Of a stretch of DNA of 64,000 nucleotides, positions 26,552 through 43,719 are shown one piece after another (position 1 is the stretch's first letter; every line of letters starts with the position of its first letter). Below the pieces are notes generated by a model that was not told the DNA's origin, made no database searches, and worked only from the letters and a program-made list of their open reading frames with translations. Source of the stretch: Candidatus Rokuibacteriota bacterium (lineage in GTDB: Bacteria > Methylomirabilota > Methylomirabilia > Rokubacteriales > CSP1-6); contig QHSC01000086.1 in assembly GCA_003220345.1 (NCBI GenBank), positions 1-64,000 on the forward strand. Direction: 5' to 3'. The position numbers and the translations under genes were made by a program.

Positions 26552-26553
26552 GC

Positions 26554-27288: not shown

Positions 27289-28012
27289 GGCCGCCCAGGC
27301 TGCCATGCTCGAGGCCCAGGGCCTCAACGTGCTCTACGGCGACTACCAGATCCTCTGGGACGTCTCCTTTCGCGCCCCCGCGGGAGAGGTGATCGCCATT
27401 CTCGGTCCCAATGGCTCGGGCAAGTCCACCCTCATGAACACGCTCTCCGGGCTCCTCCGCTCTCGCACGGGAGCGATCAGCTTTCGAGGCGCGCGCATCG
27501 ATGGGCTGCCCCCGCACAAGATCGTGGGACAGGGCCTCGCCCACGTCCTCGAGCGGCGCCGCCTCTTCCCGTACCTGACGGTGAGCGAGAACCTGCTCCT
27601 GGGCGCCTATCATCCGAGCGCCAAGGCCCGCCGGCAGGAGACCCTGGACGACGTCGAGGCGCTGTTCCCTCGCCTGCGGGAGCGCCGCGCCCAGCTCGCG
27701 GGCACGCTCTCGGGCGGCGAGCAGCAGATGGTGGCCATCGGCCGCGGGCTCATGGCCCGGCCGGCCCTGCTCATGATCGACGAGCCGTTTCTCGGGCTGG
27801 CGCCGAAGGTCGTCGAGCAGATCGCCGGCGTCATCTCCGCCATCAACCGTGAGCGGGGCATCACCATCGTCTTCATCGAGCAGAACGTGGAGCTGGCTCT
27901 CCGGATGGCCCATCGCGGCTACATCCTCGAGTCCGGGCGGGCCATTCTCGAGGGCCCCTCGGCCGACCTCCTGGCTTCGGCCGAGGTGAAGCGCATCTTC
28001 CTCGGTCATTGA
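27278..28012 (+). CDS. livF: Second Liv-type ATPase, LivF
   Basis: A 244-residue ATPase, last gene of the island. Walker A GPNGSGKSTLMNTLSG, LivF-type HVLERRRLFPYLTVSENLLLG, signature LSGGEQQMVAIGRGLM, Walker B LLMIDEPFLGLAPK and terminal IVFIEQNVELALRMAHRGY. ATG 27278 overlaps livG by eleven bases; ATG 27305 is an alternative that would start at the family N-terminus LEAQGLNVLYG. A strong hairpin follows the stop at 28059. Confidence 0.94.
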   Translation: MSPEAAQAAMLEAQGLNVLYGDYQILWDVSFRAPAGEVIAILGPNGSGKSTLMNTLSGLLRSRTGAISFRGARIDGLPPHKIVGQGLAHVLERRRLFPYLTVSENLLLGAYHPSAKARRQETLDDVEALFPRLRERRAQLAGTLSGGEQQMVAIGRGLMARPALLMIDEPFLGLAPKVVEQIAGVISAINRERGITIVFIEQNVELALRMAHRGYILESGRAILEGPSADLLASAEVKRIFLGH

Positions 28013-28115: not shown

Positions 28116-28841
28116 TCAGCGCGTCGGACTCGCCTCTCCCTTGCGCCGGCGCCACGCGCACGCACCCAGGCCGAGGACGCCGAGCCCGAGGAGTGTCAGC
28201 GTGGCGGGCTCCGGCACCACCCTCAACTCCGTGTCGAAGCTGGTGACGCCAGGGCCAGCGAAATGGATGCTCACGATCTCGGTCAGCGAATAGGGCGCAA
28301 CAGGAAAGCTCCCCGCGAGGAGGAGCCCGCTGAAGGCACCCGGGCCGAACGTCGCAGGCCCGATATGCAGCCCACTCGTGCCGAAAATCGTGTTGGTGTT
28401 GTCTTCGTACCCGTCGAAGCTGATCGTGTTGCCGGATCCCGTCAGCGTGCCCCCGAGGGACATGACGAGGTGTGTCGCACCCTGCGGGAAGGAAAAGTCC
28501 GTGTCGCTCAGCTGGAGGATGAAGTTCTGAGCCCCGGCCGAGGTGCTCGTGACCTCGATGGCGCTCAGGTCGATGGTGCCCGGAAACGGATGCACGGGCT
28601 TCGAGATGCCGGTGTCGACGGTGACGAGCAGACCCGGAAACGGGCCTCCCCCTCCCGGAGCGTACAGGATGACACCCACGGTCGGATCTGAATCACCGGG
28701 GCCGTTGTCCAGCACGGTCACTGTCGTCACGCCGTCGGAGATCTTGAACTGCGCCCCAGCATGCGCGGCGCTCACCCAGACCGCGAGCGTCAACGCGAGT
28801 ATCGCGAGAATACGTATCCAGCTCGAACTGCTCTTTGCCAT
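28116..28841 (-). CDS. PEP-CTERM sorting domain protein
   Basis: Exported protein of 241 residues. The N-terminal signal peptide is SWIRILAILALTLAVWVSAAHA; a beta-rich middle without cysteines follows; the C-terminus is a complete PEP-CTERM signal: VPEPATLTLLGLGVLGLGA then basic RRRKGE. Such proteins are processed and sorted by exosortase (EpsH) and are linked to exopolysaccharide. No exosortase is in the window. ATG 28841 is chosen because AAAGGGGA precedes it at normal spacing; an upstream start at 28889 would add 16 basic residues. Single gene with terminator at 28059. Confidence 0.9.
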   Translation of the reverse strand: MAKSSSSWIRILAILALTLAVWVSAAHAGAQFKISDGVTTVTVLDNGPGDSDPTVGVILYAPGGGGPFPGLLVTVDTGISKPVHPFPGTIDLSAIEVTSTSAGAQNFILQLSDTDFSFPQGATHLVMSLGGTLTGSGNTISFDGYEDNTNTIFGTSGLHIGPATFGPGAFSGLLLAGSFPVAPYSLTEIVSIHFAGPGVTSFDTELRVVPEPATLTLLGLGVLGLGACAWRRRKGEASPTR

Positions 28842-29226
28842 TTGGCGTTTCCCCTTTCTTCGAGACCTGCTGGACAGAGTCTCTAGCAAGGGGCGCGCCG
28901 ACGTGAAATCACAAGGGAGAGCAACACTTCAAGCCACTTGCGGGCGAAAAGATTCTGGGCGGGGGCATGTCGTAAAGGCCTCCGACATGGAGCGCCCAGG
29001 AACTGGCCGACGGCGCCCTCGAGAACGTCGCCCGCATGGGCCGGCGGCGTGAGAGGGAGCGGACCCCCTTGGCCCCGCCTAATGCCCGGCCAGATTGGCT
29101 GTTTTGCGTGCCCCTTCTGGGGCTGTCGGGCCTGGCTCACCCCCGTGCTATGCTGGCTGGCAAGTCTCAGACCGGCTTAAAAGCTCGGCCGACAGTGGCT
29201 TCACCAGCCAGGGGGAGTCGATCGAC
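28842..29226. other. 385-base divergent intergenic region
   Basis: This holds the start regions of the PEP-CTERM gene (minus strand) and the TPR/Roadblock gene (plus strand). Visible items are the nested palindrome at 28955-28999, a possible extended -10 TGCTATGCT (29146-29154) and the Shine-Dalgarno AGGGGGAG (29210-29217). No protein-coding frame in it looks real. It could hide a small RNA. Confidence 0.6.
28955..28999. repeat. Nested interrupted palindrome
   Basis: Outer arms CTGGGCG (28955-28961) and CGCCCAG (28993-28999); inner arms CATGTCG (28966-28972) and CGACATG (28983-28989) around a ten-base loop. Each pair is a perfect inverted repeat, so the 45 bases can fold into one long stem with small internal asymmetry. 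Candidate operator or structured RNA in the divergent spacer. Confidence 0.65.
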
Positions 29227-30033
29227 GTGGGTTTAATGAGGCTGCTGGCGCGCATCTGGGAGGCGATCACCAGCATCACACGTCCGCCCAATGCCGCCAC
29301 GCTGTTCCGGCGGGCCGACCTCTACCGCCAGGAAGGCCGCTTCGAGGAGGCGGCCGAGCTCGTGGCCCAGGGGCTTCGGCTCCAGCCAAACAACGGCGTC
29401 GGCCATCTCCTCTCAGCCTACCTGCACCTGGCCTTCAGGCAGATCGGTCCGGCCAAGGCCGAGTTCCAGACGGTCCTCGGCGTGGATCCCTATCACCCCC
29501 GCGCCCTCCTTGGATTGGCCAGGATCGCCCTCGAGGAAAGAGACCTCGCCGCCTGCCGGCCTTTCCTGGACAAGGCCCTCCAGTACTATCCCGACTTTCC
29601 CGAGGCGCGCGCGCTCCAGGAGATGGTCGCCGGCTGGGCGGACGTGGCGGTACCCGCCGGACAGCGTCCGGCCTACGCCGGGCCGCCCCTGGCCGCGGAG
29701 AGGCTCAAGCCGCCCGCGGCGGGTCGCGAGTTCGTCCTCACGCAGGCCGATGGCACCCTCGTCTTCTCGCAGCAGGGGGACAAGGACGCCGAGGACCTGG
29801 CCGCGCACGTGACGCAGGTGTACCGGATCGCCGCGGCCACGCTCGCCCGTGCGGGTCTGGGCGCCCTCCGGCGCGGCATCGTGCAGGCGACCACGGAGAC
29901 GACGTTCTTCCGGAGCAATGACCGGCTCATCCTCGCCCTGACCTTCCCGCAGGACGTCAAGATCGGCTTCGGGCTTCTCGAGACGGACAAGATGTGGACG
30001 AACTCCCTGCGCGAGCTCGGAGTGCGCGCATGA
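29227..30033 (+). CDS. TPR protein with C-terminal Roadblock-like domain
   Basis: A 268-residue cytoplasmic protein. Residues about 25-150 form three or four TPRs (LFRRADLYRQEGRFEEAAEL, YHPRALLGLARIALEERD). Residues about 165-268 (FVLTQADGTLVFSQQGDKD through NSLRELGVRA) resemble a Roadblock/LC7 alpha-beta domain, by pattern only. I chose GTG 29227 since AGGGGGAG lies nine bases upstream; ATG 29236 is the alternative. Its stop overlaps the next Roadblock gene (ATGA). The pair converges on the mglB end of the signalling operon, suggesting a shared GTPase-regulation role. Confidence 0.75.
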   Translation: MGLMRLLARIWEAITSITRPPNAATLFRRADLYRQEGRFEEAAELVAQGLRLQPNNGVGHLLSAYLHLAFRQIGPAKAEFQTVLGVDPYHPRALLGLARIALEERDLAACRPFLDKALQYYPDFPEARALQEMVAGWADVAVPAGQRPAYAGPPLAAERLKPPAAGREFVLTQADGTLVFSQQGDKDAEDLAAHVTQVYRIAAATLARAGLGALRRGIVQATTETTFFRSNDRLILALTFPQDVKIGFGLLETDKMWTNSLRELGVRA

Positions 30034-30497
30034 GCGCCGAGCCCGTGCCTCCCGGACAGCCCGTGGCGGGCACGGCCCCGCTCGCGGCCGCTTCGCGCTC
30101 CTCGCGCGCCCGTGAGTTCCGCCGGATCCTCGCCGAGATGCTCAGGATCGATCGCGTGCGCGGAGGCCTCGTGGTGGCCGCCGATGGGCTCGTCATCACC
30201 TCGAGCGTGCCGCGGAACATCGCCATCGAGCCTCTGGCCGCCCTCACGGCCACCCTCGGCCGCGAGCTCGAGGCGGGAGGCGACCGGCTCAAGCGCAGCA
30301 CCTTTCACACGGCGCTCTTTTCGGCGGACGACGGCACGCTGTTTCTGGGCGCGTGCCCGGTGGGCTTCGTGGTGGTGCTGGGAGACCGCGAGGTCAACGT
30401 GGGGCTGGTGCAGTGGGCGCTCCGGAAGGCGCTCGCTACCCTCGAGGGCACGTGGGGCGCGAGAGACCAGGTCCCCGCCACGCCCGAGGAGATGTAG
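30030..30497 (+). CDS. Roadblock/LC7 domain protein
   Basis: A 155-residue protein. After a flexible Ala/Pro N-terminus (1-25) it has the Roadblock fold pattern: helix REFRRILAEMLRIDRVRG, strands GLVVAADGLVITSSV, long helix EPLAALTATLGRELEAGG, FHTALFSADDGTLFLGA and final helix VGLVQWALRKALATLEG. Roadblock proteins are regulators or scaffolds of small Ras-like GTPases such as MglA. Starts at ATG 30030 inside the previous stop. It lies convergent with mglB, with a 14-base tandem repeat between them. Confidence 0.85.
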   Translation: MSAEPVPPGQPVAGTAPLAAASRSSRAREFRRILAEMLRIDRVRGGLVVAADGLVITSSVPRNIAIEPLAALTATLGRELEAGGDRLKRSTFHTALFSADDGTLFLGACPVGFVVVLGDREVNVGLVQWALRKALATLEGTWGARDQVPATPEEM

Positions 30498-30604: not shown

Positions 30605-31075
30605 TTATGCCTTCTTCTCTCCGAAGCCCGTGCGCGACTCCTCGGCGGTGAGCGGCGTGGACATCTCCTTCATGTCCTTGGGCCTCTCCCGCGCCTCGGC
30701 GAGGATCTTGCCGACGGAGATGGCCGCCTCCTTGGCGAAGAGCCGGACCATGCCCACGGTCGTCCGCTCGCCGAAGATGGCGAGCAGAATGGCCTGATCG
30801 TCCACCGTGGAGACATGCATGCTCTCCTTGGCGCCCTGATGGAAGAGAACGGTGAACTCCGTCTCTCCCAACAGCTGGGCCAGCGCGCCCGTCGAGCTGA
30901 AGGCGCCGGCGGCGAGGGCGGAGATGGAGACGGTGTCGAGCGCACGGTTGGCGCCCGTCATGGACAGGAGCTGGCCGCTCCGGTCGATGAGCAGCGCCTC
31001 GCTGGCCCCGGACTCGCCCAGGAAGGTCGTCAGGACCTGGTTGATCTTCTCGGAATCGATCTCGCGGATCACCAT
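30605..31075 (-). CDS. mglB: MglB-like Roadblock/LC7 protein
   Basis: A 156-residue Roadblock protein of the MglB type, the GTPase-activating partner of MglA in polarity control. The core reads KINQVLTTFLGESGASEALLIDRSGQLLS, ISALAAGAFSSTGALAQLLGE, STVDDQAILLAIFGERTTVGMVRLFAKEA. The charged C-terminal tail (PKDMKEMSTPLTAEESRTGFGEKKA) is variable in the family. ATG 31075 lies one base after the mglA stop; GTG 31093 overlapping mglA is an alternative. It is the last gene of the signalling operon, in the order mglA-mglB rather than the mglB-mglA order of Myxococcus. Confidence 0.9.
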   Translation of the reverse strand: MVIREIDSEKINQVLTTFLGESGASEALLIDRSGQLLSMTGANRALDTVSISALAAGAFSSTGALAQLLGETEFTVLFHQGAKESMHVSTVDDQAILLAIFGERTTVGMVRLFAKEAAISVGKILAEARERPKDMKEMSTPLTAEESRTGFGEKKA

Positions 31076-31076
31076 G

Positions 31077-31697
31077 TTATGCGGTCTGCTCACGGTCTGC
31101 CCCCTTTTCTTGCCCGAACTCGCCGACCAGGACCATGCGGGACACGGTGTTCAGCGTATCGAACACGCCGTCACCGTTGACCGCCACGGCCTCGAAGGAC
31201 GGGACCCGACGGGCCCGCCGGTTGAGGAGAAATTCCATGTACTCGAGCGGCGCGATGTTAGCGAGGTCGCGCTTGTTGTACTGAATCACGTACGGGATCT
31301 CGTCGATGTTGTAGCTGTACTCGCGGAGGTTCTCCTCCAGGTTGCGGAAGCTCTCGACGTTCTCGCGCAGCCGGTCCCACTGCGAGTCGGCCACGAAGAC
31401 GAGCCCGTCGCATCCGCGCAGGACGAGCTTGCGCGTCATGTTGTAGTAGACCTGCCCCGGCACCGTGTAGAGTTGGAACTTCGCCGTGAAGCCGCGCACG
31501 GTCAGCGCGGAGACGGGAAGGAAGTCGAAGAAGAGGGTGCGGTCGTCGCCCGCGGCCAGCGAGATCATGTTGCCCTTGCTGTCGCCCGGCAGGCTCCGGT
31601 GGATGTGCTGGAGGTTGGCCGTCTTGCCGGCCACCCCGGGGCCGTAGTAGACGACCTTGAAGTTGATGACCTTCTGCGCGTAGTTGATGATCGCCAT
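31077..31697 (-). CDS. mglA: MglA-like Ras-family GTPase
   Basis: A 206-residue small GTPase. The P-loop is GPGVAGKT (19-26), the G3 motif is TVPGQ (78-82), the MglA-specific form where Ras has DTAGQ, and G4 is NKRD (141-144). The N-terminus MAIINYAQKVINFKVVYYGP matches MglA exactly in style. MglA-GTP marks a cell pole and drives motility machinery; MglB removes it from the other pole. It starts six bases after the large membrane-protein gene and is followed by mglB, so the switch and its regulator are co-expressed with the chemosensory genes upstream. Confidence 0.95.
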   Translation of the reverse strand: MAIINYAQKVINFKVVYYGPGVAGKTANLQHIHRSLPGDSKGNMISLAAGDDRTLFFDFLPVSALTVRGFTAKFQLYTVPGQVYYNMTRKLVLRGCDGLVFVADSQWDRLRENVESFRNLEENLREYSYNIDEIPYVIQYNKRDLANIAPLEYMEFLLNRRARRVPSFEAVAVNGDGVFDTLNTVSRMVLVGEFGQEKGADREQTA

Positions 31698-31703
31698 ATC
31701 GCC

Positions 31704-34700
31704 TCAGGCTCCCAGAAGCCGCGCCGCCGCCCGCTCGACCTGCAGGCGCGCGAGACCAGGCCGGCCAGTGTCTGCGCCGCCCACGAGGAGGACAGCGGCG
31801 GCTCCGGCGGCCGACGGCAGCCGGCGCACCTCGAGCCGCTTCGGTCCTGATCGCAGCACGGCAGAGTGAAAGGATCCAAAGCCTCCCGCGGGGCCCTCGA
31901 CGCTCATGGCCGCGACCAGTGCGCAGCCGAAGGCGGCAAGGGGCGCCGCGGCCGCCTCGGGGGGAAGGAAGCAGTGCACGAGCGCGCCTCGCTCGATGTC
32001 GCGGAAGCTCGAGGCGGTGAGCTTGCCAAAGGCGTCGAGGGCCTCCGCCACCTCCGAGCCGGACGCCGGCTCGGGCCCTGGCTCGAGGCGCGGTAGCCCC
32101 GTGCCATCGGGCGGCCGATGAGGGTGGCCCGTCGCCTCGCTCACGGCGTGCCCGGCCGCCGCCCGACGCGCCAGCATTTCCAGCCGAGCCAGCGAGCCGC
32201 CCGAGCGCAGCCCCACCGCGATGACCGCGCCCGTTGCCCAGCTCGAGCCCACCGGCGTGAGCACGAGCGCGCCGCCCACGGCCCTGAGCGTCACCTGCTC
32301 CACGGGCCACGGAGCATGAGCGGCCAGCAGCGTCGACAGCGTCCCCGCCGCCGAGGTCAGCGTCTCGCCGGCGAGCCCCGCCGCGCCCGCCGTGATGACG
32401 GTGAAGCCTCCTATCCGGGCCTCGTCCACGACCAGCGCGTCCCACTGGGACAGCAGCGACGAGAGCCTCGAGAGATCACCGTGTGTCACCTCGGGAGCGG
32501 TCGTGATCGTCGGCGCTGGAGGGGCAGCGGGGGAGACCGACGGAGTCGCCCCGGCCGCGGGCGATGTTTCGGGCCTCGGTGACGGACGCTCCTGGATGAC
32601 GCCCGGGGCGACGGGGGGAGCCGAAACGGGGGTCGCGACAGGAGCCGGGCTCTCGACCACCGCAGGCGGCGGTGCGGCCACTGTCGCTGCGGGCGCCTCG
32701 TGCCCTATGGGCTTGAAGGGTGCGGGGAAACCCTCGATCCCCGGCACCTCGAGGGGACCGCGCGTCATGAACGCCGCGAAGAGATCGGGAGGCAGCTGAC
32801 CCATGATCTCGTCGAGCGGGAGAACGAGGCTGCCGTTGGCGATGCGCTGGGTCACCTCGGCCGCAGGCACCGCGAGGACATCGGCGGGAAACTGGTCCGC
32901 CACCGCGTCCCACGTCACGTGCACCGCGCCCTCGGTCAGCTGGGGCAGCACGACCGATTGCGGCACGAGCAGGACACGGCTCGTGGCAAGCCGCGCCCCC
33001 ACCTGCGCGAGCGGGAGGCGGAAGACGCCGGGCGGCAGCTGCCCCATCACGCGCTCGAAGGGGATGCGGATGACCGCTTCCGTGGGAACGGTCGCCGCAA
33101 CCGCGGGAGGCTCCACGACCTCTTCGGGAATCGCGACGTTGGACACCGCGCCCTCGGGCAGGGCCACCTCGAGCGGCACGAGGCCAGCCGGGGTGACTTC
33201 CGGCTCGACGATGTCGGGCAGGGCGATGCCGGCCTGAGCGATGTTGGCCTGAGCAACGGGGCTCGCGCCCGCGGCATGCAGGTCGTCGAGGAGACTGTTC
33301 ACGTCGATGTCTGCCGGCACCTCGTCGATCTCGACGATATTCGCGGGAGCCGGATCATCCTCGATGACCAAGTCGGCGGCGGCAAACTGGCTCGCCGGCT
33401 CGGCGGGAGCGTCCTCGATGCGCTCGAGAAGCGGCGACACGGGCGTGGGCGTTCGCTCCGACTCGACGGCGGGGACCACGGGGGGAAGCGAGGCAAGCCC
33501 GAGATCATGCGCCACGAGGTCGGCGTCCGGCACCTCGATGGCAAAGGTCTCGGGCTCGAGATCGACCGGCGCGACGGAGGCCGTCGCGTCCGGGGGCATC
33601 GCTCCCGCTCCTGCGGTGGGAGCGATCTCCACGGCCGTGCGTCCCTCTTCCCAACCCGGGGGTCTGAACGGGGCGGGAAACTCCTCGAGCCCGGGCATCT
33701 CCACCGGCCCGCGCGCCATGGACGCCGCGAACACGTCGCGCGAGAGCTGGCGCACGATCTCGTCGAGAGGCAATAGCAGCCGTCCATTGACGATGCGTGT
33801 GGCGACCTCGGACAAGGGCACGGCGAAGACCTCGGGGGGAAACTGGTCCGCTACCACGTCCCATTCCACCTGCACGACGCCTTCACCGAGCTGGGGCACG
33901 ATGAGGGCCTGCGGCACCACGAGCACCTCGCGCTCCGCGAGCTGAGCTCCTACCTGGTGCAAGGGCAGCCGGAAGGCGCCCGGAGGGAGCTGCCCCATCA
34001 CGCGCTCGAAGGGAATGCGGATCGCGCTGCCGACCTCGGTGGGCCGCGCGGTGACGGGCTCTGTGGGCAGCACTGACGGCTCGACCGCTTCCGGAAGCTC
34101 CTCCGTCTCCGCGGCGTCCGCGGGACGCGAATCCTCCTCCGTGGCGAGATCGCCGAAGAGCTCCTTGAGGGCCTGACGGAAATCAGGCAGCGGCGCCGGC
34201 CCCGCCTGCGCGGTCTCGGAGGCGGCGGGCACGTCCTCCAGCGTCTCCGCCTGGACGCCATTGGTGCTCGACAAGGTCGGGGCCGGAACGAGCGGCTCTT
34301 CCACCACCAAGGAATGCGTGGGCACCACGGAATGCGTGGGGGGAAGCGCGGGCGACGCAACCTCCGGGACGACATCTGGAAGCTGGGGGGAGGGCTCGGG
34401 CTCGGCAATCGCCGCGCCGGCGGCTTCCGTCAACGCCGCGCCCGCCGTGGTCACCCCGACGGCGGCGCCCGCGGCAGCCGAGAGGGGGGCGCCGCCCACG
34501 GCGAGCGTGCGCCCTTCGGTCGCGGTCTCGACGGGGCCGCCCGCGCGGGCCCAGGTCTCTCGCCTCTTGCCCTCCGCCGCCGCGGGCTTCGCGGCCGCCG
34601 GGCGCGCCGATTTCTTGGCCGCCGCGCGATCCACGGAGCGGGGCGCGAGCGCGTCGAGGAATGGCAGCGTCATGACGAGAGAGCCGACCATGTCGAGCAC

Positions 34701-35054
34701 GAGGGCCGGGGGGAAGCTCCAGAAGGCCGGCGCCACGAGTTGCCGGATGGGCAGGAACGTGACCGCGGAGTAGAGCCACGCCGTCGTGGCGCCAAGGGCC
34801 ACATGAAGCACGCTCAGGATGCCGAAGCCCGCGAGCCACCCGCCGATGCGCAGGCTGGGCACGCAGAGGGGCAAGATCAGCGCATAGATGGCGGCGGGGG
34901 CGGCGATGGCCGTCCACCAGGGAAGCGTCAGCTTCACGCTCGGGTTGAGGACGTAGAGCGCCGTCGACGAGGCGAGGACGAGACAGAGAGCGGCCAGGGC
35001 CGCCAGCCACGCCCAGGGCTTCTTGAGGTTTGCGGAGCGCGCCCTCGTCGCCAT
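31704..35054 (-). CDS. Large membrane protein with repeated PPxxF modules and Roadblock-like C-terminus
   Basis: 1116 residues, family not recognised. Residues 12-135 form about four membrane helices, then a basic K/A linker (about 140-170). A long acidic, proline- and valine-rich region contains two near-identical modules at about 343-468 and 662-785. Each starts IRIPFERVMGQLPPG and ends GLEEFPAPF or GIEGFPAPF. Inside each module the pattern xxVxxQhPPxxFxhPLxxVxxxh repeats two to three times (MGQLPPGAF, ADQFPPEVF, MGQLPPDLF). The C-terminal 260 residues (from about 855) look like two divergent Roadblock/LC7-like alpha-beta domains. Located directly before mglA, it is a candidate membrane anchor for the GTPase. 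The function is inferred. Confidence 0.8.
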   Translation of the reverse strand: MATRARSANLKKPWAWLAALAALCLVLASSTALYVLNPSVKLTLPWWTAIAAPAAIYALILPLCVPSLRIGGWLAGFGILSVLHVALGATTAWLYSAVTFLPIRQLVAPAFWSFPPALVLDMVGSLVMTLPFLDALAPRSVDRAAAKKSARPAAAKPAAAEGKRRETWARAGGPVETATEGRTLAVGGAPLSAAAGAAVGVTTAGAALTEAAGAAIAEPEPSPQLPDVVPEVASPALPPTHSVVPTHSLVVEEPLVPAPTLSSTNGVQAETLEDVPAASETAQAGPAPLPDFRQALKELFGDLATEEDSRPADAAETEELPEAVEPSVLPTEPVTARPTEVGSAIRIPFERVMGQLPPGAFRLPLHQVGAQLAEREVLVVPQALIVPQLGEGVVQVEWDVVADQFPPEVFAVPLSEVATRIVNGRLLLPLDEIVRQLSRDVFAASMARGPVEMPGLEEFPAPFRPPGWEEGRTAVEIAPTAGAGAMPPDATASVAPVDLEPETFAIEVPDADLVAHDLGLASLPPVVPAVESERTPTPVSPLLERIEDAPAEPASQFAAADLVIEDDPAPANIVEIDEVPADIDVNSLLDDLHAAGASPVAQANIAQAGIALPDIVEPEVTPAGLVPLEVALPEGAVSNVAIPEEVVEPPAVAATVPTEAVIRIPFERVMGQLPPGVFRLPLAQVGARLATSRVLLVPQSVVLPQLTEGAVHVTWDAVADQFPADVLAVPAAEVTQRIANGSLVLPLDEIMGQLPPDLFAAFMTRGPLEVPGIEGFPAPFKPIGHEAPAATVAAPPPAVVESPAPVATPVSAPPVAPGVIQERPSPRPETSPAAGATPSVSPAAPPAPTITTAPEVTHGDLSRLSSLLSQWDALVVDEARIGGFTVITAGAAGLAGETLTSAAGTLSTLLAAHAPWPVEQVTLRAVGGALVLTPVGSSWATGAVIAVGLRSGGSLARLEMLARRAAAGHAVSEATGHPHRPPDGTGLPRLEPGPEPASGSEVAEALDAFGKLTASSFRDIERGALVHCFLPPEAAAAPLAAFGCALVAAMSVEGPAGGFGSFHSAVLRSGPKRLEVRRLPSAAGAAAVLLVGGADTGRPGLARLQVERAAARLLGA

Positions 35055-35067
35055 CAGGTCGTGGCCA

Positions 35068-35841
35068 TCAGATCGCCCGGAGCAAGTCCGGCAAGATCTT
35101 CTTCACGTAGTAGCGCAGCTTGCCGAGCGCGGTCGCGTCGCGCAGCACCACGGCCAGGACGGCTCCCGGCCCCACCGCGTGCAGCACCACCATGCCCGAT
35201 TCGTAGTCGAGAATCATGCTCTGGAGCATCCCCCGCCCCAGCTCGCGTCCGATGCCCTCGGAGGACTCGGCGAGGCATGACGCGAGCGCGCCGGCAACCT
35301 CCGCCCCGATGGCCACGTCGCCCGCCGCTTCGATGAGAAAACCCTCGCGATCGACGAGCGTGGCGAGCCCGACGCCCGGCATGGCCGCGAGCTGCCCGAG
35401 CATGCCCTTGAGGTCGGGCATGGCCACGAGCTCTTCGGGCAGAGCGCCCGCGGACGCCGGCGCCCCGGGCCGCGGACGCGCGGCGAGGAGCTCGTCCACC
35501 TTCCGGGCCAGCTCGTCAGCCGTGAACGGCTTGCGGAGCACGGCGTTGGAGCGCACGTGCGCGGCCCGCTCGAGCACGCTCGCGTTGACGATGCCCGAGA
35601 TCAGGAGGACGGGGGTGCTTCCCAGGGCGGGATGCGCTCGCACGAACTCGCAGATCCGGTAGCCGTCGATGTCCGGCATCACGACGTCGCACACCACGAG
35701 ATCGGGCATGGCCCCGCCGATGCGCTCCATGGCCTCGGTGCCGGAGGAAGCCGCGAGCACCTCGAAGCCCTTGGTCTGCAGCGAGCGCTCGACCATCTTG
35801 CGCACGGACAGGCTGTCGTCCACCACGAGGACGCGGGGCAC
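35068..35841 (-). CDS. Response regulator receiver fused to Roadblock domain
   Basis: 257 residues. Residues 1-122 are a complete CheY-like receiver: acidic pair in VLVVDDSLSVRK, phospho-acceptor Asp52 in VVCDVVMPDIDG, conserved Thr/Ser region LLISG and Lys in LRKPFTADEL. After a Pro/Ala linker (about 123-140), residues 141-257 form a Roadblock/LC7-like domain (LKGMLGQLAAMPGVGLATLVDREGFLIEAAGD, then VVLHAVGPGAVLAVVLRD). The fusion ties phosphorylation from the CheA hybrid upstream to a GTPase-regulating domain. Start is GTG 35841, three bases after the previous stop. Confidence 0.9.
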   Translation of the reverse strand: MPRVLVVDDSLSVRKMVERSLQTKGFEVLAASSGTEAMERIGGAMPDLVVCDVVMPDIDGYRICEFVRAHPALGSTPVLLISGIVNASVLERAAHVRSNAVLRKPFTADELARKVDELLAARPRPGAPASAGALPEELVAMPDLKGMLGQLAAMPGVGLATLVDREGFLIEAAGDVAIGAEVAGALASCLAESSEGIGRELGRGMLQSMILDYESGMVVLHAVGPGAVLAVVLRDATALGKLRYYVKKILPDLLRAI

Positions 35842-35844
35842 GGG

Positions 35845-36699
35845 CTACGTCGTCCTCGGGGGCGGCGGCGGCGCGCGCCCCTCGTCGATCTCGGAGGCCA
35901 CGGAGATCAGGAGCTGGTCGAGATTCTTCTGGATGGTGCGCGGGCCCGCGTCGGCTCCGGTGGCGGGCTTGAACCGGAAGGTGCCTTCCGGGTCGTGCTG
36001 GGCGGCGGCAACGAGGGCGGCGAAGGCGCTCTCGCCCGTGAGTCCCGCGAACTCCGCGTGGATCACCCGTCCCGATTCGAAGAGCACCGAGCCATCCCCC
36101 ACCGAGAGCGCCAGGGCCAGGCGACCCGTCTTGCCCCCGAGACCTATCGCCTGCGTCACCTCGGTCAGGTCGAGGGCCCCGAACGATCCCTGGAACGTGC
36201 GTCCGCCCACCTCCGCCCTGGGCATGCCAGGAAGGCCCGAGGCGGACGCCGCGGATGCCGGACGCGCGGCCGGGAGTGGCCCGGGCTCGGGGACCGCGGA
36301 GCCGGACTCGCCCGGCACGACGTGACGCAGCAGCTTGGAGATTCTGTCGAGCACGGCCGAGACGACGAAGTCGCCCGCCAGAAGCATGTCCACGCCCGCC
36401 TGCGCCACCGCCCACGGGGTCGGGCGCGTGGGCCCCGACAGCAGCAGGAACGGGATGTCATGGGTGGCGGGATCGCTCCGGATGATGGAGCAGAACTCGA
36501 CGCCGTCCATGTCTTCCGTGCGCGCGCCGCTCACGATCAGGTCGGGCCGGTCGCGCTCGAGCGTGGTCAGCGCGAAGGACGCGCTCGTGGCCGAGGTGAC
36601 CTTGTAGGCGGCCGCGGCCAGCGCCGATCGCAAGGCGCCGAGCTTGGCGGGATCGGCGTCCACGATCAGCACCTTGGCGAGAGGGTGGCCAGGGCTCAC
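35845..36699 (-). CDS. Pseudo-receiver with C-terminal DUF4388 (PATAN-like) domain
   Basis: 284 residues. Residues 8-125 have a receiver fold (KVLIVDADPAKLGALRSAL), but the phospho-acceptor position is Gly (LIVSGARTEDMDG, where VxxDxxMPxMDG is expected) and the conserved Lys-Pro is missing. It is probably not phosphorylated. A linker rich in Pro/Ala/Ser follows, then residues about 163-275 match DUF4388: FQGSFGALDLTEVTQAIGLGGKTGRLAL, GSVLFESGRVIHAEFAGLTGESAF. DUF4388 proteins are common next to Frz/Che and gliding-motility systems. GTG 36699 overlaps the cheA stop. Confidence 0.85.
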   Translation of the reverse strand: MSPGHPLAKVLIVDADPAKLGALRSALAAAAYKVTSATSASFALTTLERDRPDLIVSGARTEDMDGVEFCSIIRSDPATHDIPFLLLSGPTRPTPWAVAQAGVDMLLAGDFVVSAVLDRISKLLRHVVPGESGSAVPEPGPLPAARPASAASASGLPGMPRAEVGGRTFQGSFGALDLTEVTQAIGLGGKTGRLALALSVGDGSVLFESGRVIHAEFAGLTGESAFAALVAAAQHDPEGTFRFKPATGADAGPRTIQKNLDQLLISVASEIDEGRAPPPPPRTT

Positions 36700-39674
36700 G
36701 AGGCGGCCTCCGCGCCGGAGACGCGGGCGGTCAGCGAGTCCACGAGCCTGACGAAGGCGTCCTCGTCCACGGGCTTGGTGACGTAGTGGGTGATGCCGAG
36801 GCGCCGGGCCAGGCTGACGTGCTTGGCGCCCGCGCGGGTCGTGAGCACCACGACGGGCAAGGCCCGCGTGGCGGCGCGGCTGCGCATGTCCTCGATGAGC
36901 TCGTACCCGCTCACGCGCGGCATCTCGAGATCGGTGATCACCGCGTCCACGGACGATTCGGCGAGCCGGCGGAGGGCTTCGGCGCCGTCGGTGGCCGTGA
37001 GCACCTCGAAGCCTGCCCGCTCGAGCATCTGGCCGACGAACTTGCGAATGCTGACGGAGTCGTCCACGAGGAGGACGCGGCGTCCCTGCGGCTCCCGACG
37101 CGCGCGGGCCGCCGCCTGCGCGCGCGCGGCCCGTGCCTCACCCGCTCTCCCCGCCCACGCCTGATCGGTCAGGCGTGAGGGATCGACGAGCAAGATGACG
37201 CGGCCGTCGCCGGAGATGGTCGCCCCGCCGAAGGGCCCGACGCTCTCCAGCACGCCACCCACGCTCTTGATGACCACTTCCTCCTTGCCCACCAGCTCGT
37301 CCACCGCGACGGCCAGGGGTCGCACGCCGGAGCGGAACACGAGCACGGGCAGCCGCGCCGGGGTGGCGCCCCCGGGGAGCGCCAGCACGCGGTCGAGACG
37401 GAGCAGCTCGATCTCTTCCCCCTCGATCATGACCCATTCCCGGTCGTCCGTGGCGCGGATTTCCTGAGGGCGCGGCTGGGCGATGCTGCGGATGGCGGGC
37501 ATGGGAATCGCGAAGGTCTCGCCACCCGCCCGCACGAGCAAGGCGTCGGAGATGACCACGGTCAGCGGCAGCTTGATGGTGACGCGCGTGCCCACCCCCT
37601 GCTCGCTGTGGAGGTCGATCTCGCCGCTGAGCCGGCTGACGTTGGTCCGCACCACGTCCATCCCGACGCCACGGCCCGAGGTCGTCGTCACCGCCCCCGC
37701 CGTGCTGAAGCCGGGCAGGAAGACGAGGGTCAGCGCCTCGCGGTCGCTGAGCGCGGCGGCCTGCTCGGGGCGCAGGAACCCCTGGCGGGAGGCGTGCTTA
37801 CGCAGGGCGGCCGGATCCATCCCCCGGCCGTCGTCGGCGATCTGGACGTAGACGAAGCTGCCCTGGGGATACGCGCGAAGGGTCACGGTGGCTTGCCCGG
37901 GCTTGCCCGCGCCCCGTCGCTCCTCGGGAGACTCGATGCCGTGATCGATGGCGTTGCGCACGAGATGGAGCAGGGGGTCGGCGATCAGCTCCATGACCGC
38001 GTTGTCCACCTCGACGCTCTCTCCCTCCAGGGCGAGCGTCACCTGCTTGCCCGCCTCGCGGGCGGCCTCCCGCGCCGGGCGCGTGAAGCGCGAGAAGAGG
38101 CGGCCGATGGGGACCATGCGCGCCCGCGTCACCTCGGCGCGGAGGCTGCCCGTCAGCCGGTGCACCTGCGCCGTGTCCTCGCTGATGCCCCGGATGAGCC
38201 CCGCCAGCTGCGCCTGGATCTCGGACACGTCGGCCGAGATCTCCGCCACGCCGCGCGCGAAGATGTTGAAGTCGTCGTAGCGGTCGAACTCGAGCTCGGC
38301 GAAGAGCTTGCTGAAGGGCTCCCCTGCCGTCTCCTCCGCGGGCGCGGGCGTCGTCTCGTGTCCCGGCTCCACGGGAGCGTCCGGCGCCAACGGCAGCTGA
38401 GTATACCGGTGCTTCTCCTCGAAGTCGCGCACGGCCTGGGCCATGCGCGAGCGGCTGAAGAGGAGCAGCTCGTTGACGCGCTCGACCTGACTCATGCGCT
38501 GGTCGAGGCGGCTGCGCGCGATGACGAGCTCCCCGACCATGTTCATGAGCGAATCGAGGCGGTCGAGATGCACGCGGATGCTCGGACGCGCGCCCGCGGG
38601 ATCGATGGCGCGGCGCACCCCGGCATCGGGGGGCGGGAGAACGAATCGCGGAAGGCTCGGCGCGGACGCGGCGGCGTGCGTCTCGAGCTCGACCCCGAGG
38701 GCAGGCTCGACCCCGAGGGCAGGCTCCCCGATGACCACGGGGGCCGGCATCGGACGGAGCGCATCCAGCACCTGCAGCGTGCGAGCCACCGCCCCGCGCA
38801 CGTCGGGCGAGGAGACCCGGGCCGAGCCGAGGAAGAGGCGGAGGACGTCCACGCCCGCGAAGATGCCTTCGATGACCGGTGGGGTCAGAGCGAGACGCCG
38901 CTCGCGCACCGCCTCCAGCATGTCCTCGATGCGGTGCGCGAGATCACCCACGGGCGCGCATCCGACGGTATAGGCCGCGCCCTTGAGGGTGTGCACGGCG
39001 CGGAAGAGTGTCGCCACTTCTTCAGGCAGACTGGTCGCCTCGCCTGCGGCTGCGGCTCCCACTTCCATGCTATCGGCCGTGGGCGACTGCTCGAGGACGA
39101 GGAGGGAGCGGGTCATGGTGTCGAGATGCTCGGCCGCCTCGGGAGCGAAATAGGGCACCGAGTCCGCGTGCTCGGCGAAGAATCGGTCGAGGTCCCCGAG
39201 CATGCGGTCGACCACACCCTGGTCCGAGCCCGGGTCTCCCGCCCGCTCCGTTCCGGGCGAGGGGGACAGGGTCGGCGGACCCGCGAAGTGCTCGGGGTGG
39301 CGCGCGTGAAGCTCGGAGACGATCTCCGCGTTCTCGCGGCCGTCCGCCCCGATCGAATCGAGCATGCGCTTGACGACGCCCACCATGTCGCCAAGGGCCT
39401 GGGTGGATCGGGAGCGCCCGCCGGCCGTGGTCGCGGGCAGCGCCTCCAGGACCTCTTCCATCACGAGGGCCACCGCGGAGACCGCGGGATAGCCGTGGAG
39501 TCCCGCGGCGCCCTTGAGCCGATGCGAGACGACCACGAGCGGCGTGACGAGCTCGGGGGAGGGAGCCTCACCCGCGGTGAGACGGCGCACGCCTTCCTCG
39601 ACCGCGGCCACGGTTTCCCAGGCCTCCATCAGGAAGATGCCGAGGATGAACTCGTTGTCCTGGTCTTCGAGCAT
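36696..39674 (-). CDS. cheA: CheA hybrid histidine kinase with two Hpt domains and C-terminal receiver (FrzE-like)
   Basis: 992 residues. Two phosphotransfer domains with histidines at about 51 (SHRLKGAAG) and 228 (VHTLKGAAY). A dimerisation region begins near 365 (LDRLDSLMNMVGELVIARSRL), with a longer than usual insert to about 500. The kinase core has N box DPLLHLVRNAIDHG (566-579), G1 DDGRGMD (614-620) and G2 GRGVGMDVV (667-675). A CheW-like domain spans about 706-835 and a receiver 866-985 with Asp915 (VITDLEMPRVSG). CheA-CheY fusions are typical of FrzE/ChpA-type pathways. No cheR or cheB is present in the window. Confidence 0.95.
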   Translation of the reverse strand: MLEDQDNEFILGIFLMEAWETVAAVEEGVRRLTAGEAPSPELVTPLVVVSHRLKGAAGLHGYPAVSAVALVMEEVLEALPATTAGGRSRSTQALGDMVGVVKRMLDSIGADGRENAEIVSELHARHPEHFAGPPTLSPSPGTERAGDPGSDQGVVDRMLGDLDRFFAEHADSVPYFAPEAAEHLDTMTRSLLVLEQSPTADSMEVGAAAAGEATSLPEEVATLFRAVHTLKGAAYTVGCAPVGDLAHRIEDMLEAVRERRLALTPPVIEGIFAGVDVLRLFLGSARVSSPDVRGAVARTLQVLDALRPMPAPVVIGEPALGVEPALGVELETHAAASAPSLPRFVLPPPDAGVRRAIDPAGARPSIRVHLDRLDSLMNMVGELVIARSRLDQRMSQVERVNELLLFSRSRMAQAVRDFEEKHRYTQLPLAPDAPVEPGHETTPAPAEETAGEPFSKLFAELEFDRYDDFNIFARGVAEISADVSEIQAQLAGLIRGISEDTAQVHRLTGSLRAEVTRARMVPIGRLFSRFTRPAREAAREAGKQVTLALEGESVEVDNAVMELIADPLLHLVRNAIDHGIESPEERRGAGKPGQATVTLRAYPQGSFVYVQIADDGRGMDPAALRKHASRQGFLRPEQAAALSDREALTLVFLPGFSTAGAVTTTSGRGVGMDVVRTNVSRLSGEIDLHSEQGVGTRVTIKLPLTVVISDALLVRAGGETFAIPMPAIRSIAQPRPQEIRATDDREWVMIEGEEIELLRLDRVLALPGGATPARLPVLVFRSGVRPLAVAVDELVGKEEVVIKSVGGVLESVGPFGGATISGDGRVILLVDPSRLTDQAWAGRAGEARAARAQAAARARREPQGRRVLLVDDSVSIRKFVGQMLERAGFEVLTATDGAEALRRLAESSVDAVITDLEMPRVSGYELIEDMRSRAATRALPVVVLTTRAGAKHVSLARRLGITHYVTKPVDEDAFVRLVDSLTARVSGAEAAS

Positions 39675-39714
39675 GAGGCTTCTGTATCAGATCACGAATG
39701 GGGCCAGGGACATG

Positions 39715-41535
39715 TCATTCGGCGAGCTTGAATCGCGCCAGGCTCGCGGTGAGCTCCTCGGCAAGCTGGGCGAGCTCGTCCACGGTGCGACGAGCCTCGA
39801 GGACTCCCTTTTCCGTCTGGCCCGCCACCTCCTGAATGGCCTGCATGGCCTGCGTCACGTTCTCGGCTCCGCGCACCTGCTGCTGGGTCGCGTCCGAGAT
39901 GCTGGCGGCGAGGTCGGCGGAGCGGCGCGAGACCTCGGCGATCGCCTTGAGGCTCTCGCCCGCCTGCACGGTCACCCGGTAGCCTGACTCCACTTCCTGC
40001 GTCCCCTGCTCCATGACCACCACGGCTTCCTGGGTGTCCGTCTGGACGTTCTTGATGAGGACGGCGATGTCCTTCGTCGCCTTGGCCGAGCGCTCCGCGA
40101 GCTTGCGCACCTCGTCGGCGACCACGGCAAAGCGCAGCCCCGCCTCACCCGCTCCCGCGGCCTCGATGGCGGCGTTGAGGGCCACGAGGTTGGTCTGGGA
40201 GGCGATGTCCTCGATGGTGTTGACGATCTCCGAGATCTCCATGGAGCGATCGCCCAGGCTCTTGATCTTCTTCGAGATGGCCTGCACCTCGCCGCGGATC
40301 CGCTGCATGCCCTGCAGGCTGTCGCGCACCGCCGCGTCGCCGCGCTGGGCGGCGTCGAGAGCTTCCCGGGCGGCCGCCGCCGAGGACTGGGCGCTCTCCG
40401 CCACCTGCCGCACGAGCTGGGTCAGGGCCGAGACGGCCGAGGCCACCCGCGCCGCCTCGCGGGCCTGGTCCTGGACGCCCTGGGCCATACGCCCCGTGGA
40501 GCCGCTCATCTGGTTGGCGCTCACCGACACCTGCATGGCCGCCACGCGCACCTCGGCGATGATGGCGGCGATCTCGGCGACCATGAGGTTGATGGCGTCG
40601 ACGACGTTGCCGAGGACGTCGGAGGTGACCTCGCCGCGCTTGGTCAGATCGCCCTGGGAGACCTCCATGGCCGTGTCGAGGAACTTGATGATGTTCTCCT
40701 GCAGCTCTTCGCGGCGCCGGCGCTCGTCGTCACGCTCGGACTCCGTCTGCACCTGCGAGCGCAGCCGCACGATGGCCTCGTTGAAGGCCTGGCCGAGAGC
40801 GCCGATCTCGTCGCGCGAGCGGACGGGCACGGTATCGGAGAGGTCGCCCTGGCCGACGCGCTGGGCCGCCTGCACGAGCTGGGTCACGGGCCGCACGATG
40901 CGATCGGCGAGGAGCACGCCGCCGATGAGCACGAGGGCGGCCACGCCGCCGAAGAGGAGGAGGAGTTCGCGGCCCGCGGCCGTTGCCGCCTCGTTGATGA
41001 TGGCCCGGTCCATGCCTACCCGCACCGTGCCGATCTTGCCCCCGGCCATGGGCATGCCGATGTCCGTGATCTGGCGCGTGGCGCGCCGCGCGGGATCCTG
41101 GTATTCGATCTCGCGCACCTGCCGGGCGACATTGCCGGGCACGGGGTTCTTGTCGACGATGCCGGCGGGGACGACGGGCGAGAAGGTGTGGGCGATGAGC
41201 GTCTTCTGGGGGTCATACACCAGGACGTACGCGACGCCGCGGATCTTGGCGAACTCGTCCACCAGCGATTGCACCGACGAGGCGTCGCGCGTGGAGATCA
41301 GGTCGACGCCGGAGGTGGCTAGGCTGGAGGCGATGGCCTCGCCCTTGGAGCTGAACTCCGCGGCCATGCTGGTCCGCAGCGATCGGGCGGAGACGTACCA
41401 CGTGATGGCGGCGAGGGGAATCAGGGCCGCCACGAGGAAGAGCACCATCTTCCCGCGGAGACCGAGCCGGATCCGCGCTCGCGGCCGCGTCTCCCTGCCC
41501 TGCTCGTTGGCCTGCTCGTCGTTTCGCCGTGCCAT
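39715..41535 (-). CDS. Methyl-accepting chemotaxis protein
   Basis: 606-residue transmembrane chemoreceptor. A basic cytoplasmic N-terminus, TM1 at 30-50, periplasmic sensor of about 140 residues (51-189, single-Cache-like length), TM2 190-211, HAMP 211-263 and a second HAMP-like linker to about 330. The signalling region to 606 has the conserved hairpin tip [23 protein letters not shown] around 435-457. The C-terminus [10 protein letters not shown] has no CheR-binding pentapeptide. The preceding gene encodes an exported solute-binding protein, which may present ligand to the sensor domain. Confidence 0.94.
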
Positions 41536-41553
41536 GGAATTCTCCTTGGAGCC

Positions 41554-42885
41554 TCAGGCCCGAACCGCCGCGCTCCAGTCGGCCACGGGCACCCAGCGCC
41601 CGTTGTCGACCCGGGTGAAATACACGTTGTCGAGTCCCTGGTGTCGCTCCGGTCCGAACGTCAGCGGGGCGCCGATGCCGAGATCGAATCCGTTGAGTGT
41701 CTCGAGGGCCTGCCGGAGGCTCGCGCGGGTCGGGTTGGCGCCGGCCCGGCGCAGCCCTTCCGCGGCGACCTTGGCATTGATGAAGCCTTCGAGGCTGATG
41801 AAGCTGTAGCGCTGGAGCGTGTAGGCGCGGTCGCGGAGCGCCTCGGGCGGCGCGGGGCTGTGCTTGTCCATGAGCGCGCGGTACTCCGCGACGCCGGGCA
41901 GGCCCGTGTCGTCATAGGTCGGCACGACCTGGGAGTTGACGAGGCTCCGCGTGTAGTCGCGCCCGGTCGTCTTGCCGTGCTTGAGGAGCAGCTGCAGCAT
42001 GGCGTCCGAGCCTACGAAGGAGACGTTGGCGATGGGCACCGTCCAGCCGGCATCGCGGGCCGTCCGCACGAAGGCGCCACAGCCCTGGTAGGCGCCCGTG
42101 CAGAGCACGACGTCGCAGCCGACCTGGCGCAACGCGGTCACCGCCGGACCCATGTCCTCCTCGAAGCGGGCCCCGCGCACGTACGTCGCCTCCGCGGTGA
42201 TCTTGGACCCCCGGTGGGCGAGGGCCCGGGCCACGCCATCGGCGCCGCTTCGCCCGTAGGCGTCGATCTGGTAGAAGACGCCGAACTTGCGCGCCCCCTG
42301 CGTCCAGAAGCGCTCGACCAGGCCTGCCATCTCCTGGCGATACGACGCGCGGATGTTGAAGACCCAGTCGACGTAGGGCGCCTCGCGCTGCGGCTGGGCC
42401 CCCGTGAAGTTGCCGACCATCACGATGTCGCCGTAGCGCTTGATGAGGGGGAGGGCGCGCGTCAGGGTGGGCGTGCCCACGTAGTTCGCGAGGAAGAAGA
42501 CCTGCTCCTTCTCCACGAGGTCGATGGTGTTCCGCATGCACGGCTCGGGCTGATAACCGTCGTCGAGCGCGGCGACCACGAGCTGCCGGCCGTTGATGCC
42601 GCCCCGCGCGTTCACCTCCGAGTAGTACGCGGCCGCGCCGCGCCAGAGCTCGGTGCCGAGACCCGCCGCCGCGCCCTTGAAGGCCGCCGACATGCCGATC
42701 TTGATGTCGCGCGCGCTCACGCCGGGCGCGCTGGCCTGGGGTGGCTCGAGCCGCGGCGTGACCGCGCGTCCGCCGGCCCGCGGGGATGCGCCCTGGGCGA
42801 GGGCGCGCCCGCGTCCGCCGAAGAGGGGGCCGGCGGCAATGAGGCCGCCCGAGGTCAAGCCGAGAAAGCGCCGCCGGTCCATCAT
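41554..42885 (-). CDS. Tat-exported ABC-type solute-binding protein in the chemosensory operon
   Basis: 443 residues of the Peripla_BP_6 (LivJ-like) family. The N-terminus MDRRRFLGLTSGGLIAAGPLFG is a twin-arginine signal with cleavage near RALAQG. The mature part begins DIKIGMSAAFKGAAAGLGTELWRGA and shows GINGRQLVVAALDDGYQPEPCM and VFFLANYVGTPTL. No permease or ATPase accompanies it. It lies between cheW and the chemoreceptor, so a sensory role (ligand presentation) is likelier than transport. ATG 42885 is chosen one base after the cheW stop; GTG 42897 would add four residues. Confidence 0.9.
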   Translation of the reverse strand: MMDRRRFLGLTSGGLIAAGPLFGGRGRALAQGASPRAGGRAVTPRLEPPQASAPGVSARDIKIGMSAAFKGAAAGLGTELWRGAAAYYSEVNARGGINGRQLVVAALDDGYQPEPCMRNTIDLVEKEQVFFLANYVGTPTLTRALPLIKRYGDIVMVGNFTGAQPQREAPYVDWVFNIRASYRQEMAGLVERFWTQGARKFGVFYQIDAYGRSGADGVARALAHRGSKITAEATYVRGARFEEDMGPAVTALRQVGCDVVLCTGAYQGCGAFVRTARDAGWTVPIANVSFVGSDAMLQLLLKHGKTTGRDYTRSLVNSQVVPTYDDTGLPGVAEYRALMDKHSPAPPEALRDRAYTLQRYSFISLEGFINAKVAAEGLRRAGANPTRASLRQALETLNGFDLGIGAPLTFGPERHQGLDNVYFTRVDNGRWVPVADWSAAVRA

Positions 42886-42886
42886 G

Positions 42887-43360
42887 TCAGCTCCCACCCG
42901 CGGGGACGGTAGACGCGCCGCCGAGCGCCGTCAGGATGCGCGAGACATCGAGAAGCACGGCCGCGCCCGCAGAGCGCTCGAGATGGCCCGCGATGAACTC
43001 GCCCTCGTCCGGATCCGGCGCGGTCAGGCGCTCGAGGGGCTCGAGCCCGACGACGTCGTCGATGAGAAAGGCCGCCGTCAGCTGATCGCGCTCGACGACG
43101 AGGGCCTTGGCACCGCGCGTGGCGCGCGCGGGCTCGAGCCCCAGGAGGGGGCGCAGGTCCACGAGGGGCACGAGGCGGCCTCTCAGGTTGGCCACCCCGA
43201 TCAGGTGCGGGGGCGCCAGGGGTACCTGCGTGTACTCGTCGAAGACCACGACCTCGCGCGCGAATCGCACTTCCGCCGCGTAGAGAGCGTTGCCGAGCCT
43301 GATCAGGCACGCGCGCGCCTGCGCAGGGGCCGGCGGCGATACCGCGGGCGCCGTGGTCAC
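42887..43360 (-). CDS. cheW: CheW coupling protein
   Basis: 157 residues linking chemoreceptor and CheA. Family features are CLIRLGNALYAAEVRFAREVV at the start, PLAPPHLIGVANLRGRLVPLVDLRPLLGL in the middle and FLIDDVVGLEPLERL toward the end, matching the CheW SH3-like fold. A Pro/Ala N-terminal extension of about 15 residues precedes the domain. Starts at GTG 43360, overlapping the stop of the receiver gene (GTGA), and ends just before the binding-protein gene. Confidence 0.93.
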   Translation of the reverse strand: MTTAPAVSPPAPAQARACLIRLGNALYAAEVRFAREVVVFDEYTQVPLAPPHLIGVANLRGRLVPLVDLRPLLGLEPARATRGAKALVVERDQLTAAFLIDDVVGLEPLERLTAPDPDEGEFIAGHLERSAGAAVLLDVSRILTALGGASTVPAGGS

Positions 43361-43719
43361 TTGACGAACTGCCTCACCATGCTGACGAGCTGCTCGGGCG
43401 TGAAGGGCTTGCCCAGGTATTCGTCGGCGCCCTGGCGCTTCCCCCAGACGCGATCGCTATCCTGGTTCTTGGAGCTGACGAGCACGACGGGCGTGTGCCG
43501 CGTGCGCGCGTCGCGCTTGATGCTGCGGAGAAGCTCGTAGCCGTTGCGGTTGGGCATGACGATGTCGAGGAGCAGGAGGTCCGGACGCTCCGTCACGAGC
43601 TTGTCCTCGAGCTTGTCGCCGTCCAGGCTCGTCACGACGTCGAGGCCAGCGGACTTGAGGATGACTTCCATGAGCTTGAGCTCCGAGTAGGCGTCGTCGA
43701 CCACCATGACCTTGGCCAT
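43357..43719 (-). CDS. Single-domain response regulator (CheY/PilH-like)
   Basis: 120-residue receiver domain without output domain. Acidic pocket in VMVVDDAYSELK, phospho-acceptor Asp52 (LLLLDIVMPNRNG), Ser in VLVSSKNQDSDR and Lys in YLGKPFTPEQL. The MPNRNGYELLRSIK block and the QDSDRVWGKRQGADEYLGKPF segment are close to PilH/PilG-type regulators. First gene of the signalling operon; ATG 43719 has GAGGAGCTCA upstream. A promoter candidate lies about 110 bases upstream. Confidence 0.93.
   Translation of the reverse strand: MAKVMVVDDAYSELKLMEVILKSAGLDVVTSLDGDKLEDKLVTERPDLLLLDIVMPNRNGYELLRSIKRDARTRHTPVVLVSSKNQDSDRVWGKRQGADEYLGKPFTPEQLVSMVRQFVK

Follow-up and report, generated by a model that had tools for sequence, protein, structure and literature searches.

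In Myxococcus, a chain of binding runs from the receiver protein RomR to the Roadblock protein MglC and from there to MglB (PMC12719032), and the GTPase MglA activates pili through the tetratricopeptide repeat (TPR) protein SgmX (PMC11580455). The connection between the Frz chemosensory pathway and this MglA polarity module was stated to be unknown as of 2025 (PMC12719032), and a survey of 1,611 genomes found the mglA genes of Myxococcus and Bdellovibrio away from the genes of their signalling partners (PMC4316618). In Synechocystis, PATAN (DUF4388) domains bind PilB, as cited in PMC10519157. The locus described here belongs to a soil-type bacterium, Candidatus Rokuibacteriota bacterium (Methylomirabilota, Rokubacteriales; assembly GCA_003220345.1). 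The window, i.e. the whole stretch analysed, comprises the first 64 kb (64,000 nucleotides) of contig C73 (QHSC01000086.1) in a metagenome-assembled genome (MAG) of 5.6 Mb and 429 contigs, with 96.6% completeness and 7.3% contamination. A chemosensory pathway and an MglA/MglB pair form one conserved unit in this window. On balance we lean towards the MglA/MglB polarity switch being the output of the pathway, and this switch probably acts on type IV pili.

Ten open reading frames (ORFs) follow one another on the minus strand, from position 43719 to 30605, at intergenic distances of -4, -11, +18, +40, -4, +3, +13, +6 and -17 bp in order of transcription. This confirms the ten-gene run with overlaps described in an earlier note on this DNA: all ten ORFs are present, the gaps (-17 to +40 bp) do not exceed 40 bp and several genes overlap. 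Consensus scans of the operon detected neither a sigma-70 promoter nor a clear terminator, so its status as an operon is based on geometry and conservation. Domains were called with Pfam, MglA and MglB by matches to solved structures, and the domain set given in the note was recovered for all genes but the 1116-residue membrane protein. The genes are, in order of transcription:

43357..43719, minus strand: single-domain CheY-like receiver, REC1 (Pfam Response_reg, 5e-25)
42887..43360, minus strand: CheW adaptor (Pfam CheW, 5e-24)
41554..42897, minus strand: twin-arginine periplasmic binding protein of the branched-chain amino-acid type (Pfam Peripla_BP_6, 1.5e-50)
39715..41535, minus strand: membrane chemoreceptor with sCache_3_2, HAMP and MCPsignal domains (Pfam)
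36696..39674, minus strand: CheA-REC hybrid kinase (Pfam: two Hpt, H-kinase_dim, HATPase, CheW and REC)
35845..36699, minus strand: pseudo-receiver with PATAN domain (Pfam DUF4388, 6e-13)
35068..35841, minus strand: receiver (REC) fused to Roadblock/LC7 (Pfam REC, 3e-22; Robl_LC7, 8e-10)
31704..35054, minus strand: membrane protein of 1116 residues (hydropathy and AF2 model; no Pfam family)
31077..31697, minus strand: MglA, small Ras-like GTPase (Pfam Ras/Arf-like; PDB 3t12, 5ymx, 6h17 and 6hjh MglA, E about 1e-67, nearly full length)
30605..31093, minus strand: MglB, Roadblock-type GTPase regulator (Pfam Robl_LC7; M. xanthus MglB 6h5b, E 8e-25; beside mglA)

Conservation was surveyed across 60 genomes of the order, 21 with and 39 without an mglA of the window type. 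All 21 also carry an orthologous cheA (Fisher p about 1e-10, a value that overstates the evidence because the genomes are related and thus phylogenetically non-independent). Gene order is identical in these 21 as far as the contigs extend, with the exception of G027, in which the binding-protein gene and MglB are not detectable; this recurrence speaks against a chance arrangement. A very similar locus, in G003, has an MglA 96% identical to that of the window. Distances between genomes correlate for MglA and REC-Roadblock (r 0.85) and, to a lower degree, for MglA and CheA (r 0.63). The two halves, which the earlier note allowed might never be found together in relatives, are co-located in 21 genomes, and the proposal of a joint unit withstands this check. 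The operon (MglA 80% identical) was furthermore seen in G090:C258, from a genome (contamination 8%) placed in a different family within the class; this could be a misbinned contig or a transfer.

The unit exceeds ten genes, as two genes on the opposite strand are conserved alongside the operon (29095-30497):

29994..30497, plus strand: stand-alone Roadblock protein (Pfam Robl_LC7, 4.5e-6; profile match to solved Roadblock structures; convergent to mglB)
29095..30033, plus strand: TPR protein with C-terminal Roadblock fold (Pfam TPR; AF2 and Foldseek)

In the AF2 model of the latter, the C-terminal fold matches M. xanthus MglB 6hjm (Foldseek, TM about 0.66 normalised to the target). The TPR-Roadblock gene occurs in 19 of the 21 mglA-bearing genomes and in one of the 39 others, and is missing from five relatives that keep the chemosensory part without mglAB; because its distribution tracks mglA, it belongs with mglAB and not with the che genes. 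Depending on the genus, the pair neighbours either mglB or the REC gene; it switches ends but is close to the operon wherever detected.

The presence of MglA and MglB, claimed in the note, is borne out by the nearly full-length MglA structure matches (about 1e-67) and the match to M. xanthus MglB (about 1e-25). Among aligned MglA sequences, Thr78 (PM3 motif), Gln82 and NKxD are kept in 21/21 and the P-loop Lys in 20/21; judged by these matches and residues, MglA and MglB are genuine. The REC-Roadblock protein retains its receiver catalytic residues in all 28 aligned sequences, and its Roadblock portion aligns with the profile of MglB (hhalign, 90%). The 1116-residue membrane protein comprises approximately four N-terminal hydrophobic segments (hydropathy), a long disordered linker, two IRIPFERVMGQLPP-type repeats, and two C-terminal alpha/beta domains whose modelled order of elements is Roadblock-like (AF2). 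The IRIPFERVMGQLPP repeats were considered as companions of mglA and rejected, one repeat being retained in relatives without mglAB.

Residue conservation in CheA, REC1 and REC-Roadblock was assessed in 24-30 aligned sequences each. REC1 keeps D8, D9 and D52 in 30/30 sequences and K104 in 29/30, the remaining one being unaligned at this position; both Hpt histidines, the N and G boxes and the REC Asp of CheA-REC are kept wherever aligned. The PATAN protein, in contrast, has Gly, Arg or another residue at the phospho-Asp position and Asp in 0/27 orthologues, which agrees with its designation as a pseudo-receiver in the note, whereas REC1, REC-Roadblock and the CheA receiver keep their catalytic residues. 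In some relatives (L080, L081, L127), additional CheW-domain matches lie between cheA and the PATAN gene. The chemoreceptor is membrane-bound (Cache domain, HAMP and hydrophobic segments). The binding protein matches PDB 4kv7 (Leu/Ile/Val-type, E 6e-50), and most orthologues examined possess an N-terminal twin-arginine motif. Its position adjoining the Cache receptor fits a small-molecule input, as the note had supposed for an extracellular signal. A second che cluster of the same genome (contig C427, L130:1492-9163) contains a Peripla_BP_6 binding protein, an sCache_3_2 receptor, CheW, CheA, CheR, REC and CheB, and such binding protein-receptor pairs may thus be habitual in the lineage.

Two ABC ATPases close to the operon (25744-28012, plus strand) were read by eye as belonging to a branched-chain amino-acid transporter. 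Liv-type ABC genes adjoining the operon were considered as the transporter working with the binding protein and rejected: among the stretches compared, a corresponding gene at this place was seen within one genus only. An ORF adjoining the TPR-Roadblock gene (28116-28889, minus strand) terminates in a sorting signal resembling PEP-CTERM, VPEPATLTLLGLG...WRRRKG, again read by eye.

The sequences establish the gene set with its order and conservation, the domain identities and the retention of catalytic residues; the interactions, the direction of signalling, the ligand and the pilus output are proposals. By analogy with Synechocystis and Myxococcus we infer a route from CheA through REC-Roadblock to MglB/MglA and on to the TPR-Roadblock and PATAN proteins and the pili. 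The exported binding protein would capture the ligand and present it to the Cache receptor, which would control the CheA-REC hybrid via CheW. Phosphate would then pass from CheA to three receivers: its built-in REC domain, the CheY-like REC1 and the one in REC-Roadblock. The REC-Roadblock protein resembles a fusion of the RomR receiver with MglC, and its Roadblock half may pair with MglB in the way that MglC, itself an MglB paralogue, does in Myxococcus; if so, its phosphorylation would change the effect of MglB on MglA. That REC-Roadblock is in this manner a direct, one-step link from kinase to MglA, phosphorylated by CheA, paired with MglB and switching MglA, we propose tentatively, as possible rather than probable. 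The TPR-Roadblock protein and the PATAN pseudo-receiver might read out MglA-GTP and act on the type IV pilus motors, and the 1116-residue membrane protein might anchor the complex.

The source genome possesses two PilT-type ATPases over the cut-off, one of them adjoining a PilB-type ATPase, and PilM over its curated cut-off; PilQ-like matches remain below the cut-off, with one set on the PilM contig. The pilus genes that the note suggested looking for elsewhere in the genome are therefore found, PilQ at sub-threshold level. As type IV pilus genes are present and FlhA was not found in this genome, a target for surface motility is available. Such genes permit a pilus output and do not prove it, because they are nearly universal in the order. 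A polarity or surface-motility output, as in the note, would be read from analogy; the pilus genes do not discriminate operon carriers.

Outside the conserved set, 139 mglA neighbourhoods were compared, with flanks of up to 10 kb where the contig allows (some longer upstream). The sampling was not exhaustive, with Verrucomicrobia accounting for 40 loci and L092 representing the second type of mglA in G043. A PATAN gene is present in 35 of them by profile search, a convincing CheA in three. L187 (G223:C6) and L188 (G296:C3), from two other families, contain REC, CheA, a long TPR protein (about 900 residues), PATAN proteins, MglA, CheB and CheD within 20 kb, with MglB-profile matches adjoining MglA; L187 additionally has a TPR-Roadblock gene, CheR, CheW and a methyl-accepting chemotaxis protein (MCP). 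A DnaA-ATPase-like gene was seen in L187 between the PATAN-TPR gene and mglA. In the third (L208), che genes lie on the opposite strand, beside mglAB and a DUF4388 gene. The synteny of mglA with cheA and DUF4388 that the note had suggested searching for thus holds in 21 genomes of the order and is scarce beyond it; as two of the three outside loci form similar che-PATAN-TPR-mgl clusters, the linkage is rare but recurrent. CheA, CheW and MCP were not found within the flanks in Verrucomicrobia, which supplied nearly all matches of one MglA contig scan. Many Verrucomicrobia (L031-L070) have a PATAN/DUF4388 gene a few kb from mglAB, with no che genes in the flanks.

Several observations weigh against MglA/MglB as the output of this pathway. 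Seven cheA-bearing genomes are without a window-type mglA, and contig breaks apply to two of them (G029, G045); assembly gaps as a general explanation were rejected for the other five. G043, G050, G052, G054 and G059 keep the chemosensory genes and the membrane protein without adjacent mglAB: unrelated genes follow the membrane protein in G043, G052 and G054, no mglAB match was found in the downstream stretch of G050, and in G059 a shorter membrane protein closes the operon and the next 490 bp contain no mglA. No MglA match was found at 1e-10 in four of these five, and the sole MglA of G043 is of a different type and lies elsewhere in the genome. The che and mgl halves are therefore separable, and in these relatives the che half either serves something without mglAB or decays. 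CheR and CheB are missing from among the operon genes. Nearly every relative, with or without the operon, possesses type IV pilus genes, and G017 carries the operon with no PilT found over the cut-off. For the C-terminal domains of the membrane protein, Foldseek gave no Roadblock match at E<=0.001 and hhalign only a weak one. The earlier note is borne out in that sensor, kinase, receivers and MglA/MglB share one unit. Its term "self-contained" is not supported as it stands: relatives keep the che genes without mglAB, and the adaptation enzymes found lie in the C427 cluster. Two more genes, besides, belong to the unit.

The persistence of the che half in five relatives favours a pathway controlling another surface property, for instance exopolysaccharide, adhesion or gene expression (cf. 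Dif, Wsp), in which MglA/MglB would place a secretion or envelope apparatus. CheA-REC hybrids are indeed known from non-motility systems too, and genomes lacking the operon also have type IV pilus genes. The conserved block, however, includes neither a diguanylate cyclase nor a polysaccharide gene, and published work links both kinds of partner, PATAN and TPR, to type IV pili (PMC11580455, PMC10519157), so we regard such a role as unlikely, if still to be taken seriously. Two units could also share a transcript without direct signalling between them, one a chemosensory array that acts on pili through PATAN, the other MglA/MglB with the TPR-Roadblock and Roadblock proteins. That mglAB and the TPR-Roadblock gene vanish together where che genes remain, and that the TPR gene sits at either end of the operon depending on the genus, would suit this arrangement. 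It is rendered quite improbable by REC-Roadblock, which lies within the che part and unites both halves in one polypeptide, by window-type mglA never occurring without orthologous cheA in the order, and by the recurrence of clusters of similar gene kinds in distant genomes. A decaying or artefactual gene combination, for which the contamination of the MAG might speak, is refuted by the very similar locus in G003, the gene order shared by the remaining genomes with mglA in this taxonomic order and the catalytic residues kept; its probability is next to nil.

Were REC-Roadblock the direct link, it would offer a single-step counterpart to the connection between Frz and polarity in Myxococcus, and the fusion suggests how sensing could directly steer surface movement. 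With sensor, kinase, receivers, GTPase and the fused receiver-Roadblock in one operon, the step from sensing to GTPase might be measured with few purified proteins. A little-studied lineage would also be added to those in which an MglA switch is likely to be under chemosensory control.

Actinobacterial conservons (CvnA-D) likewise combine a sensor kinase, an MglB-type Roadblock protein and an MglA-type GTPase in one operon, but lack a chemoreceptor array, CheA/CheW and PATAN and carry CvnC. L187 and L188 share CheA, CheY, PATAN, TPR, MglA and MglB-profile matches with the window, and L187 TPR-Roadblock as well. Their CheA is without REC, CheB and CheD are present (in L187 also CheR) and PATAN is fused to TPR, whereas the binding protein and the 1116-residue membrane protein were not seen in either.

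In the Frz pathway with MglA/MglB/RomR/MglC, as in the present locus, chemosensory input is expected to act upstream of MglA/MglB, a receiver and a Roadblock paralogue stand in between, and there is a TPR partner. Receiver and Roadblock are separate proteins in Myxococcus, whereas here they are fused in one chain and a PATAN protein is added; mglA, apart from its partner genes in Myxococcus, is here together with them in one locus. The designation "Frz-like" in the earlier note nevertheless proved too specific. The CheA-CheY fusion FrzE is matched by CheA with a C-terminal REC, a trait common to other systems, but FrzCD is cytoplasmic, whereas the window encodes a membrane Cache receptor and a binding protein. 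The Frz locus contains CheR (FrzF) and CheB (FrzG), both of which the operon lacks, the CheR/CheB pair lying in the C427 cluster; no double-receiver protein of the FrzZ type is found in the operon, its receivers being a single REC and REC-Roadblock. PATAN, moreover, is typical of the cyanobacterial Pix/Pil systems. These Pix/Pil/Tax systems share with the window a PATAN regulator, a small REC, CheW, MCP and a hybrid CheA, with the type IV pilus as likely target. The receiver of the local PATAN protein differs in being N-terminal and, having no phospho-Asp (27/27), is not of their phosphorylatable kind, and the locus adds MglA/MglB, Roadblock proteins and the binding protein. Overall, the locus matches the cyanobacterial Pix/Pil systems at least as well as Frz.

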